Source: Candidatus Andersenbacteria bacterium RIFCSPHIGHO2_12_FULL_45_11b (GTDB lineage: Bacteria > Patescibacteriota > Andersenbacteria > UBA10190). Taken from it: 34,604 nucleotides of DNA. How positions within the stretch are numbered: the stretch's first letter is position 1; the number at the start of each line of letters is the position of its first letter. Shown here piece by piece: positions 3,263 to 33,914 of the stretch. Both the position numbers and the translations under genes were made by a program. The DNA lies in the NCBI GenBank assembly GCA_001817115.1, contig MHHS01000006.1, positions 1 to 34,604 of the forward strand. The letters run 5' to 3'. The notes under the pieces were generated by a model. That model saw only the letters and a program-made list of their open reading frames with translations, did not search any database and had not been told where the DNA came from.

Positions 3263-4348
3263 ATGAGCAAGACCACTCTTGTACGGAGCCTTCACCACGC
3301 AAAAGTATGCTTCATTCCCTTTCCTGCTAATAATCACCATCCGTTGGCGCTTCGGCACAAGCCACTTACAGCCATTTCCTTGCTTCTCGTCATCACAAAA
3401 ATCGTTGCTATCAGCATTGTCGGCCTCACGCCAAGCGAAGCAACCCTTTCAACCATCACTACAAATCGCATCATACAGCTCACGAATGAAGAACGTGGAA
3501 ACACTGGCTTACCAGCGCTCGCCGTCAACAGCAAGCTCGCTCAAGCCGCACAGCTCAAAGCAAACGACATGCTGAAAAACCAATACTTTGCCCATATATC
3601 CCCGACGAACGTAACCCCGTGGCACTGGATGGAACAAACGGGCTATTCCTACGAAGTTGCAGGAGAAAATCTTGCCATCGACTTTACGCAGGCAGAGGAT
3701 GTAGTATCTGCATGGCTTGCAAGCCCGAAACATAAGGAAAACATGCTTCGAAAAGATTATACTGAAACTGGCGTTGCCATTGCATCGGGAAAATTCAAAG
3801 ATTCGACATCAATTATAGTAGTTCATATGTTCGGCAAGCCTTCTCAAGCATCTACCCCAGCATCCTCCCCTACCTCTCCCCTACCCGCCGAAGCTTTAGC
3901 GCAAGTGGAACCAAGCGCGCTCTTGCAGGCAAGGGCATTGCCGCCAAAGCTCACTCCCACAATAACACCAACACCGTCACCTTCCCCCGCGCCAGTTATT
4001 GCAAGTATCATTCTGTCTCCCTCTTTTGACCAAGAAGAGTTTGCTATTGCACCAGCACATGCGAGCACATCTTCCTGGCAACTATTCTCTGTGCATTCTG
4101 CCATTGCATCAGATACAGATGTAGTATCCGCGATTCCTCTATTTACTATTCATCCAGTATCAAAAACATCAACAACATTTTTCGCGTTTACCTCGCGCAT
4201 CAGTCGAGATATGAGCGCCAGCATCGCGCTCGCGATGTGCGCATTGCTTTTGATTGCTGTTTTTGTTCGTGTTAAGGTACAGCACCCGCTCATGATTGCG
4301 CACGCATCTGTTGTCATTGTTCTCGCATTTGCGCTGTTTATCGCGTAA
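3263..4348 (+). CDS. Membrane-anchored CAP/SCP-domain protein
   Basis: This 361-residue surface protein has an N-terminal membrane helix (about 33-54), then a CAP (SCP/PR1-like) domain from about 65 to 193 with NEERGNTGLPAL, HISP, GYSYEVAGENLA and WLASPKHKENML. A Pro/Ser/Thr-rich linker follows, and two C-terminal hydrophobic segments lie at about 318-361. Extracellular bacterial CAP proteins of this kind are common, but their roles are mostly unknown. The gene is divergent from manC with only 29 bp between starts. In the linker, PLPAEALAQ is encoded by a copy of a palindromic repeat (3883-3909). Confidence 0.85.
   Translation: MSKTTLVRSLHHAKVCFIPFPANNHHPLALRHKPLTAISLLLVITKIVAISIVGLTPSEATLSTITTNRIIQLTNEERGNTGLPALAVNSKLAQAAQLKANDMLKNQYFAHISPTNVTPWHWMEQTGYSYEVAGENLAIDFTQAEDVVSAWLASPKHKENMLRKDYTETGVAIASGKFKDSTSIIVVHMFGKPSQASTPASSPTSPLPAEALAQVEPSALLQARALPPKLTPTITPTPSPSPAPVIASIILSPSFDQEEFAIAPAHASTSSWQLFSVHSAIASDTDVVSAIPLFTIHPVSKTSTTFFAFTSRISRDMSASIALAMCALLLIAVFVRVKVQHPLMIAHASVVIVLAFALFIA
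3883..3909. repeat. CCCGCCGAAGC-type palindromic repeat inside the CAP gene
   Basis: The segment ACCCGCCGAAGCTTTAGCGC is a degenerate copy of the element also found at 9111-9141 inside tyrS, where it reads CCCGCCGAAGCCTTGGCGAA. Here it is translated in frame as PAEALAQ in the low-complexity linker, where an insert would be harmless. Confidence 0.65.
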
Positions 4349-4445
4349 TGTGCGGTAATTGCGCTCTTTTACCGTATGGTGTTAAACTTTCAGGGATGTG
4401 GAAAAACAGTACATCCAATGAACACGGCAAAGGAGGTGGGTATCT

Positions 4446-4622
4446 ATGAGCGAACTACTCGTTGTTGCAAGCAAGGTGCGAGCGTATCTTAAAGAAAAGG
4501 ACGCAAAGATGTCCGGAGACCTTCCTGAAGCCATAAACAAGAAAGTTATGGCTGTATTAGATGAAGCTGTTATGCGATCTAAGGGAAATAAGCGAACAAC
4601 CGTAAAACCACAAGACGTATAG
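4446..4622 (+). CDS. Putative bacterial histone-fold protein, 58 residues
   Basis: The product starts MSELLVVASKVRAYLKEKDA and ends GNKRTTVKPQDV. The pattern of a short helix, a loop, a long central helix (about 26-47), then R-T-T-V and K-P-x-D-V at the C-terminus matches a single histone fold; archaeal histones and the Bdellovibrio Bd0055 type end in the same R-[KT]-T-[IV]-x-P-x-D-V way. I recognise it by this pattern, not by a search. A strong Shine-Dalgarno (AAAGGAGG) lies 8 bases before the ATG, and a good terminator follows, so it is a monocistronic and probably well-expressed gene. The likely role is nucleoid binding. It could instead be an unrelated small helical DNA-binding protein. 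Confidence 0.65.
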   Translation: MSELLVVASKVRAYLKEKDAKMSGDLPEAINKKVMAVLDEAVMRSKGNKRTTVKPQDV

Positions 4623-4648: not shown

Positions 4649-4672
4649 AACCGCTTTAATAAGCGGTTTTTT
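4649..4672 (+). terminator. Rho-independent terminator after the histone-like gene
   Basis: AACCGCTT and AAGCGGTT form an 8-bp stem with a TAAT loop, followed by a run of T. It sits 26 bp after the stop codon. Confidence 0.85.
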
Positions 4673-4693: not shown

Positions 4694-4722
4694 TTGACAT
4701 TTGCATTAAACTTTGCTATAAT
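4694..4722 (+). promoter_or_regulatory. Consensus promoter of the sortase gene, leaderless layout
   Basis: TTGACA (4694-4699), 17 bp, TATAAT (4717-4722) is a perfect sigma70-type promoter. Only 8 bp separate the -10 box from the ATG at 4731, so the transcript should start at or within about 2 bases of the start codon. Confidence 0.88.
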
Positions 4723-4730
4723 GCGATGTT

Positions 4731-5435
4731 ATGAAAAATGTCGTCATCACGTTTATAGCTACTCTGTTTTTTACATTCCTATTCCTCTATGGGGCTATTT
4801 CTAGTGTTCTTACCTTTGCCCCGTTCCTCGCAACTAGCATCTCGCAGATACAGCAACCAAAGCCTTCTCTTCAACTTCCGTTGAGCGCAAATCGCACAAT
4901 TCCATTTGCAACGCCAGCTCCTATTGTTGTGGTGCAACCATATCCTAAACTCACCCCGCTTGATCCTCCGTTCAACCCCGCAGATGCTGGAAAAAACTTT
5001 ATCCGCATTCCTGCAATCAACGTTACTGTTCCATTAGTGGAGAGCAAATCTCTTACCGATACTGATGTTATCTCTGCGTTGCAATCTGGCGTAGCCATGT
5101 ATCCCAATGGCGTAAGGCCAGGGGCGCTTGGGAACGTATTTATTGCGGGCCACAGCACGGGCAACCCATGGCAGGGAAAGTATAGATTTGCATTTACTAA
5201 GATTAATGAACTCCAGAATGGCGATGTCATCATGCTTGATTGGAAGGGTACTCGCTACACGTACCGAATTTATAAATCTGAAAAAATCGTACCAGCACCC
5301 GGATATACTGTTCCATCCGACCACCTATACCCCACCATGTCACTTATGGCATGCTGGCCGCTGTGGTCTACCAGCCAACGCATTCTTGTGCATGCGGACT
5401 TAACGAATATCACGCAGCTGAATCCGCGGAAGTAA
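4731..5435 (+). CDS. Sortase (class D/E-like transpeptidase)
   Basis: Sortases cleave a sorting signal on surface proteins and attach them to the envelope. This 234-residue protein has an N-terminal membrane helix (about 4-30), a Pro-rich spacer and a sortase beta-barrel from about 88. The catalytic triad is visible: His141 in IAGHS, Cys208 in LMACWP and Arg217 in STSQRILV. The family commonly has TL(T/S)TC around the cysteine; here it is SLMAC. No LPxTG substrate gene is next to it, so its substrate is unknown. It has its own consensus promoter and ends just before tRNA-Trp. Confidence 0.9.
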   Translation: MKNVVITFIATLFFTFLFLYGAISSVLTFAPFLATSISQIQQPKPSLQLPLSANRTIPFATPAPIVVVQPYPKLTPLDPPFNPADAGKNFIRIPAINVTVPLVESKSLTDTDVISALQSGVAMYPNGVRPGALGNVFIAGHSTGNPWQGKYRFAFTKINELQNGDVIMLDWKGTRYTYRIYKSEKIVPAPGYTVPSDHLYPTMSLMACWPLWSTSQRILVHADLTNITQLNPRK

Positions 5436-19198: not shown

Positions 19199-19536
19199 AA
19201 ATGAAGAGAGTTGCGGACACCGGCGAACCACCAGTTGTCATTCCAGTCATTGTCATTGCGGTTAACGTTCACATTCCGCTCGTCATTCCACCGGTTGAAG
19301 ATCGCCCCTTATATGAAGTGCCATCTCTATCATATCGCCGCGCGAATACTCGCATTCGGCTTTTTTTGTTTTCGGCATCTCAACATGCCCTAGCACTTCA
19401 TACCAAGTATCTTCATTTTTTAGAAGTTTCTGCGTAAACCGCACTATTGCAAACCGTGATCGGCAATATTCTGGATATACGGATACTGGATTCGGCAGCG
19501 GGAAACCTTGGTCGGCCACGTATTCGCCTACTACCA
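19165..19536 (-). ncRNA. DGR1 template RNA (TR1 RNA)
   Basis: A TATAAT box (19543-19548) with TTGTAT 18 bp upstream lies directly after the target-gene terminator, and a terminator closes the region at 19161-19198. This defines an RNA of about 370 bases that contains TR1 at 19211-19305. It includes a reading frame (19283-19537, minus) that stops at the TR edge and does not continue through the TR, so I treat it as RNA rather than a gene. The element ATCGCCGCGCGAATACTC (19334-19351) recurs upstream of TR2. Confidence 0.6.
19211..19305 (-). repeat. DGR1 template repeat TR1
   Basis: The 95 bp align without gaps to VR1 (19646-19740). All 16 differences are at T on the plus strand of TR1, that is, at A in coding orientation. 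In coding frame the TR reads asparagine-rich, for example RNVNVNRNDNDWNDNWWF. The first 25 bp on the plus strand (TTGCGGACACCGGCGAACCA and on) are identical in both and correspond to the initiation-of-homology end. Confidence 0.97.
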
Positions 19537-19614: not shown

Positions 19615-20253
19615 TTAGGACAAAGTTTCTGACCGCAAAGAACTCTTGCGGACACCGGCGAACCACCAGTCGTCACCCCAGTCACCGCCATAGCGGTAAA
19701 CGTCCACACCCCGCCCGCCATCCCACCGGTGGAAGACCGCGTAGCACCAGTTGCTTTCAGCATCCTTCCAATGAGTGGCATTGGGATGATCGTCGGCGAA
19801 CGCGGGATCTTGCTCGTTAACGGCGGCCAGTGAGTACGGATCGACGGGCTTTAATCCCCGCAAATCGAACTCCTTTCCGAGGTCGACGTCGTTAACGTAA
19901 CGACCAAGCTTGAAGAAGTAGACATCCACTTCTTCACCCTCACCGTGCGGCATGGAAGCAGCTACTTCTTCATCTACGTACTGATTGCGACCCGTCGCCT
20001 TCATTGCTTCCTTTGGAGGGCAGGTGCGATCGACCTTGACGCGACGAACGATCATACCACTGATCGCTTCCACGCGCATACGGAACACCGCGAACAGGTC
20101 TGTGGCGAATTCCGGCTGACCAAGAACAGTTTGCACCGCCTCGGCGTCGAATTGGCCTGCATGCTTCTCGAGCATTGCTCGATACAGGCCGACCGCTTTA
20201 TCGACTTGACCAGCTGTCGTCGTCTTTGCGGATGGGGTCATGATCTGTGTCAT
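19615..20253 (-). CDS. DGR1 diversified target protein (C-type-lectin-like VR domain)
   Basis: The 212-residue protein carries the variable repeat at its C-terminus (residues about 172-203). The constant part includes RRVKVDRTCPPKEAMKATGR, the GLKPVDPYSLAAVNEQDPAF and ADDHPNATHW run, and WCYAVFHRW, which resembles the C-type-lectin fold region of DGR targets. The VR reads YRYGGDWGDDWWFAGVRK where the TR encodes Asn at the variable places. There is no signal peptide or membrane helix, so the product is probably cytoplasmic or exported by an unknown route. The start at 20253 has AAGGAG 8 bases upstream, and the promoter is consensus. Confidence 0.92.
   Translation of the reverse strand: MTQIMTPSAKTTTAGQVDKAVGLYRAMLEKHAGQFDAEAVQTVLGQPEFATDLFAVFRMRVEAISGMIVRRVKVDRTCPPKEAMKATGRNQYVDEEVAASMPHGEGEEVDVYFFKLGRYVNDVDLGKEFDLRGLKPVDPYSLAAVNEQDPAFADDHPNATHWKDAESNWCYAVFHRWDGGRGVDVYRYGGDWGDDWWFAGVRKSSLRSETLS
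19646..19740 (-). repeat. DGR1 variable repeat VR1
   Basis: This is the 95-bp partner of TR1 in the 3' end of the target gene. Differences from TR1 are on adenine positions only and often change AAC/AAT codons (to GAC, GGC, TAC, TAT, GGT). The VR ends 9 codons before the stop. Confidence 0.97.
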
Positions 20254-32794: not shown

Positions 32795-32916
32795 TTGCGG
32801 GTAGAGGGGAAACGACAATTCTCATTCCAATCATTGTCACGGTAATTCAGATACAGCTTCCGCTTGCCATCGTTCTCGTTCGCATACAGAACACGAACCT
32901 TACCGTTCCGGTCAAC
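32795..32916 (-). repeat. DGR2 template repeat TR2
   Basis: The 122 bp align without gaps to VR2 (33304-33425). All 19 differences are at A in coding orientation. The first 25 bp on the plus strand (TTGCGGGTAGAGGGGAAACG and on) are identical. Read in frame it gives NENDGKRKLYLNYRDNDWNE. Confidence 0.97.
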
Positions 32917-33293: not shown

Positions 33294-33914
33294 CTAAGAA
33301 ACCTTGCGGGTAGAGGGGAAACGACAATACCCAGACCAAACACCGTCACGGCAACCCAGATACAGCCCCCGCTCGCCATCGTACTCGAGCGCAAACAGAA
33401 CACGAACCTCACCGTGCCGGTCAACGCAGATTTTCTGGGTACAGATGATGGGGTCTTCCCGCTGAAGGTTCGGATACGTTTCGCACAAGCTGAGAAAACG
33501 CGCGGGTGAAATCATATTTTTGCCGTTCTTGGCTTGAAAAGATTCCGCTCCGGAGCTGCTCATGCTCTTTCCGAAACGATCCAGCTCGATATGGATTGGA
33601 GAGGCATGCTCCTCTTCGGCCTCCACAAACGAATCGATGTACTGCCAGATCTCCGGATCGACGTAGTCGAACCTGCACCGCTCAATCCGATCTTTCCAAG
33701 TAAGTCCTGGAACGAATGGGGTCGGGTACGTTTTGGTCGGAGATGCAGAAGCAATCGGTGAAGATGCTTGCAGGGCGTGTTCCCACGGATTTTCTTTCCG
33801 TAGAAACTTCTTGAGTCCGACAAGCCATGCTTCGGACTCTTCACCGCAAAGTTTCTCGGTCAGGTCGTTGAGCGGTCCACGAACATCGCAGAGCGCAAGC
33901 CGAGTGTCAGTCAT
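33294..33914 (-). CDS. DGR2 diversified target protein
   Basis: The start at 33914 (MTDTRLALCDVRG) has AAAGGA 9 bases upstream and gives 206 residues; the frame to 33998 would begin at the transcription start and is rejected. The constant part has FVPGLTWKDRIERCRFDYVD and SPARFLSLCETYPNLQREDP. The VR covers residues about 164-204, reading RVLFALEYDGERGLYLGCRD and VWSGYCRFPSTRK, almost to the C-terminus. The VR domain is of a different subtype from that of DGR1 (CRFPSTR ending rather than WWFAGVR). No signal peptide is visible. The ligand is unknown. Confidence 0.9.
   Translation of the reverse strand: MTDTRLALCDVRGPLNDLTEKLCGEESEAWLVGLKKFLRKENPWEHALQASSPIASASPTKTYPTPFVPGLTWKDRIERCRFDYVDPEIWQYIDSFVEAEEEHASPIHIELDRFGKSMSSSGAESFQAKNGKNMISPARFLSLCETYPNLQREDPIICTQKICVDRHGEVRVLFALEYDGERGLYLGCRDGVWSGYCRFPSTRKVS
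33304..33425 (-). repeat. DGR2 variable repeat VR2
   Basis: It is the 122-bp partner of TR2 in the last codons of the target gene. Its 19 differences are adenine-specific relative to TR2, and its 3' end lies 10 bp before the end of the gene. Confidence 0.97.

Follow-up and report, generated by a model that had tools for sequence, protein, structure and literature searches.

A short alpha3 histone of the FtF kind encoded in Candidatus Andersenbacteria

Among proteins of solved structure, the one nearest to the protein reported here is HLp from Leptospira perolatii (PDB 9QT0, 9QT1, 9QT2), a face-to-face (FtF) alpha3 histone; it assembles into tetramers, around which about 60 bp of DNA are wrapped (Hu et al., 2025, PMC12701072). 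The HLp tetramer is held together by R49, N53 and R55, three residues that the predicted tetrameric FtF histones of bacteria share, and R55 forms with D62 the so-called RD clamp (PMC12701072). For the FtF tetramer, a salt bridge from an arginine to the C-terminal carboxylate has been published, and the bacterial dimer histones are described as having no equivalents of R48 and N52, in the numbering of that study (Schwab et al., 2024, PMC11390915). Two other histones are relevant for comparison: HTkC of Thermococcus kodakarensis, an archaeal FtF histone (PDB 9F2C), and HBb, or Bd0055 (PDB 8FVX, 8CMP, 9EZZ), which forms dimers only. A search of the openly available literature on histones combined with Patescibacteria, Candidate Phyla Radiation (CPR) or Peribacter found nothing, and the survey and characterisation papers cited here make no mention of CPR histones in their main text; CPR members may be listed in subscription papers or in supplementary tables.

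The histone gene and its expression signals

The window analysed here is the whole of a 34,604-nt stretch of DNA from an uncultured, ultra-small bacterium of Candidatus Andersenbacteria; the histone gene is single-copy in its genome (G000; 0.88 Mb, 51 contigs). The ORF at 4446..4622 (+) has an ATG start and 58 codons, and its product, MSELLVVASKVRAYLKEKDAKMSGDLPEAINKKVMAVLDEAVMRSKGNKRTTVKPQDV, has a computed pI of 9.6 and a charge of +3.5. The initial annotation had described a 58-residue product with the C-terminal RTTVKPQDV, lying between a good Shine-Dalgarno sequence and a terminator; re-reading of the sequence gave an exact match to that ORF, and both signals were found again, a strong AAAGGAGGTG 7 nt 5' of the ATG and a hairpin with a T run 3' of the stop codon. 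From the stop codon onward, 71 nt fold with an energy of -26.2 kcal/mol (z = -5.6). The elements of the locus are as follows.

3263..4348, + strand: upstream neighbour, a CAP/YkwD-domain membrane protein, which several genera of the family also have 5' of the histone gene
4377..4388, + strand: putative promoter -10 region TGGTGTTAAACT, from the alignment only; the extended -10 of the relatives is TGGTANAAT
4395..4405, + strand: conserved leader block GATGTGGAAAA, from the alignment; it also supplies the left arm in a hairpin predicted for the leader
4429..4438, + strand: Shine-Dalgarno sequence AAAGGAGGTG; orthologues keep GGAGGTG, and G014 has GGGGGTG
4446..4622, + strand: histone coding sequence, FtF-type alpha3 as predicted from ORF, orthologues, model and PDB profile search, 58 aa
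4628..4690, + strand: terminator hairpin, intrinsic-terminator-like, with a core stem at 4649-4668 followed by a T run
4731..5435, + strand: downstream neighbour, a sortase, whose best subfamily match is class E, below the cut-off

Since the sortase has its own promoter, with the full consensus TTGACA-17-TATAAT at 4694-4722, the histone gene would seem to be transcribed as a unit of its own, as judged from these putative signals. A consensus promoter scan called no promoter at the putative -10 region of the histone gene (4377..4388). A single CAP-histone-sortase operon was also considered and dropped, given the terminator 3' of the histone gene and the promoter before the sortase.

The leader block GATGTGGAAAA sits between the extended -10 and the Shine-Dalgarno sequence in the window and in G002, G005 and G008; it has one change in G004, is degraded in G006 and is absent in G001. 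On the opposite strand (4397-4405, -) it contains TTTTCCACA, in agreement with the DnaA-box consensus TTWTNCACA, and the same sequence lies close to the presumed dnaA start, an approximate position, in four genomes of the family. DnaA might bind TTTTCCACA between the -10 region and the histone ORF, such that the supply of histone would follow replication initiation; we hold this to be rather unlikely, and if it were true, a DnaA-tied histone supply would be a bacterial parallel to S-phase histone expression. Across 98 kb of family loci the density of DnaA-box-like sites is 0.11 per kb, as against 2-5 per 3.5 kb around dnaA, and GATGTGGAAAA is present only once in the G002 genome, where the reversed control is also found once, and four times in G000. 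The rival reading is that the block acts as a 5' hairpin of the mRNA rather than as a DnaA box, and such a hairpin is predicted to form from it in the window, G002 and G008.

The histone fold and the type of assembly

Searches of the window protein against Pfam and NCBIfam gave no match, even with cut-offs of E 1 and 10, and the orthologues gave only sub-threshold matches in these databases, to Histone, DUF1931 and CBFD_NFYB_HMF. A search of the PDB with the single sequence returned HLp (9QT0) at E 1.6e-13, then HTkC (0.014) and HBb (0.019); with a profile of ten orthologues the values were 2.2e-23 for HLp, 2.6e-8 for HTkC and 3.1e-8 for HBb/Bd0055. The AlphaFold2 monomer model, of modest confidence (mean pLDDT 72, pTM 0.46), places alpha1 at about residues 5-17, alpha2 at 26-47 and a one-turn alpha3 at 55-57. 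Its best Foldseek match is HLp (E 4.8e-4, TM 0.83/0.86, 48% identity), and VIA-align gives Z-scores of 7.1 for HLp (56 residues, 1.7 A), 6.9 for HTkC and 6.2 for HBb; with both programs the top matches are all prokaryotic alpha3 histones, followed by eukaryotic histones. The histone fold proposed in the initial annotation is supported both by the PDB profile search and by the predicted model, and the modelled monomer has the expected layout.

Within the histones, the protein has the shortened alpha2 and the alpha3 of 3-4 residues of the alpha3 group, to which its closest structures belong, and the motif RxTxxxxD with its RD clamp is present as R50, T52 and D57, invariant in ten orthologues. 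Nucleosomal histones of the archaeal HMf kind have a long alpha2 and an alpha3 of about 10 residues; here alpha3 amounts to a single helical turn before the chain stops at residue 58. The DUF1931 pseudodimers (PF09123) carry two folds per chain; here there is a single 58-aa fold with no Pfam match at E 1, and the best match of PF09123, at E 0.038, is found in 2 of the 10 orthologues.

The fold alone cannot separate the FtF from the dimer type, because HLp, HTkC and HBb differ by less than 1 in Z-score, and the two types are told apart by sequence. R49, N53, R55 and D62 of HLp align with R44, N48, R50 and D57 of the Andersenbacteria protein, all invariant in ten orthologues, and R44 and N48 are the counterparts of R48 and N52 in the published numbering (PMC11390915). 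All orthologues terminate at the residue aligned with the last residue of HLp, and a chain end at this point agrees with the published salt bridge, in which an arginine contacts the C-terminal carboxylate. These residues point to an FtF tetramer. The initial annotation had likened the protein to the Bdellovibrio type, which places it on the wrong branch within the alpha3 family: HBb is without both tetramer residues, and the Andersenbacteria protein stands closest by sequence to HLp, a tetrameric FtF histone. That the gene encodes a dimer histone of the HBb/Bd0055 kind, bending DNA as a dimer and forming no tetramers, we consider unlikely; the profile also finds HBb, the model matches its fold and RxTxxxxD is common to both, but HLp is far closer by sequence (2.2e-23 vs 3.1e-8), R44 and N48 are invariant here where HBb has S and D and are absent from bacterial dimer histones generally (PMC11390915), and the HBb chain extends past the end of the Andersenbacteria protein. 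The two also have in common an SK motif in alpha1, whereas loop L1 is one residue longer in HBb.

The likeness to HLp extends over 27 of the 55 aligned residues (49% identity) and includes the fold, the C-terminal end, the tetramer residues R/N/R, the RD clamp and the main DNA-contact residues: of the HLp contacts, A13, S14, K15, K21, G29, K54 and T56 are retained and R59 is replaced by K. Three secondary contacts of HLp are changed (S52 to G47, T61 to Q56, F63 to V58), as is T27 (to M22). Unlike HLp, which has about five extra residues, the protein has no N-terminal tail, and its gene does not adjoin smc. HTkC resembles it in fold, in having no tail and in the lengths of alpha2 and alpha3, but differs in its lower identity (30%) and in having E at the position of N48 in the alignment.

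The protein is a histone of the known FtF alpha3 kind in the CPR, a group whose histones have received hardly any attention. It is quite probable that the gene encodes a nucleoid histone that forms tetramers, wraps DNA and serves as a general organiser alongside HU, the formation of dimers and tetramers and the wrapping of DNA being proposed by analogy with HLp. Two chains would pair head to tail via their alpha2 helices as a histone dimer. Two such dimers would then close into a tetramer by contacts at either end, made by the C-terminal part of alpha2, by loop L2 and by the short alpha3, with R44, N48, R50 and the C-terminal carboxylate as the joining parts. DNA would wrap around the rim of the tetramer, contacting A8-S9-K10, K16, G24, K49, T51 and K54, and each tetramer would probably take up about 60 bp, the length reported for HLp. 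The role would be one of general, non-specific DNA organisation shared with HU, useful and dispensable in the genus. This adds an FtF histone to the CPR, in most of one class, with members that escape the Pfam and NCBIfam models.

Orthologues, selection and coexistence with HU

Histone orthologues were found in 9 of the 13 genomes of the class Ca. Andersenbacteria that were examined. Those of two congeneric species, both Candidatus Andersenbacteria MAGs, are 93% and 88% identical to the window protein, and those of six other genera are 57-71% identical; the named relatives and the spread of orthologues across the class agree with the CPR origin that had been put forward from the sequence. Each orthologue has a strong Shine-Dalgarno sequence and its own downstream terminator-like hairpin, despite diverged flanks. 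Between the histone genes of the window and G002 the changes by codon position are 4/1/15 (dN 0.040, dS 0.535), and between those of the window and G001 dN is 0.091 and dS 1.41. The gene is under strong purifying selection, with a dN/dS of about 0.07 for the two congeners, and 4446..4622 is a real, selected gene and no chance ORF. Bacterial histones are patchy in distribution and some reports of them are perhaps due to assembly contaminants (PMC10627809), but the probability that a contaminating contig or a chance ORF has been taken here for a CPR gene is negligible: nine genomes of one class carry the gene with the same neighbours, the contigs of the orthologues also hold ribosomal and other core genes (a 436 kb contig in G002), and dN/dS is low.

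All 13 genomes of the class encode an HU-family protein, so that the histone does not stand alone as a nucleoid protein, unlike in Leptospira, where HU has been reported absent in L. interrogans and L. perolatii (PMC12701072); with HU in the same genome, a major chromatin role for the histone is not required. Histone and HU occur together in genomes under 1.5 Mb. In G003, a 99% complete genome of the same genus, the histone gene is absent at an otherwise intact locus. The locus (L062, about 1455-1500) shows the CAP gene, a few dozen bases, and the promoter and start of the sortase gene, with no histone remnant. As the arrangement CAP-histone-sortase recurs in other genera of the family, loss of the gene in G003 is the simplest reading. 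The histone would be useful yet dispensable within the genus, and because this one genus has species with and without it, the contribution of the histone beyond that of HU is open to comparison.

The conserved gene order, together with the general packing already covered by HU and the fact that the gene can be missing, might suggest that the histone fold no longer organises DNA and has taken another role, for instance as a local regulator or with the cell-surface neighbours, the CAP protein and the sortase. We regard this as improbable, since the DNA-contact residues are retained, the histone gene ends in a terminator of its own and the sortase has a separate promoter, and the neighbours differ elsewhere: G014 and another family of the order have other genes around the histone gene, with a thioredoxin reductase nearby. 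General DNA organisation alongside HU is the reading that we prefer.

Histones elsewhere in the phylum and other elements in the window

A profile search of 379 genomes drawn from the phylum gave a histone match in 26, of which nine belong to the class, one (G014) to another family and 16 to two further families, f63 and f151. A weak match in G055 (E 5e-4, inside a 670-aa frame) was absent from the profile search results. The histones of f63 (MSYVVASK...RAKANGRKTVRPEDL) mostly retain the tetramer R and N, and one of them, searched against the PDB, found HLp first (4.8e-9) and HBb second (1e-7). HU is present in 15 of the 16 histone-bearing genomes of f63 and f151. No relative of the histone was found in phage records and viral contigs, so there is no support for a phage origin; in plasmid records only two haloarchaeal proteins appeared, annotated as DUF1931 and with 41-44% identity.

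Three genomes have two histone folds in one chain. Tandem alpha3 histones of 119-121 aa were located in f63 and f151 at L025 1306-1662 (+), L023 1309-1665 (+) and L027 1492-1854 (-), and the tetramer arginine is missing from the first half of two of them. The model of the G233 tandem histone (pLDDT 93.7, pTM 0.87) is a predicted one-chain histone dimer that matches the Methanopyrus tandem histone (1F1E) and linked H2A-H2B dimers; the prediction on such tandem relatives shows related alpha3 folds pairing as histone dimers. The tandem alpha3 histones of the second CPR family, as one-chain dimers, are handy for structure work.

In other parts of the window, a reverse transcriptase (PF00078; 17761-18771, - strand) lies beside direct repeats at 19211-19305 and 19646-19740, and a second one (PF00078; 31349-32518, - strand) beside direct repeats at 32795-32916 and 33304-33425. 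Both loci have the layout of diversity-generating retroelements, with putative template and variable repeats. The repeats of both pairs are 83-84% alike, and most of the differences within the first pair sit at T on the + strand, which is A on the strand of the reverse transcriptase.
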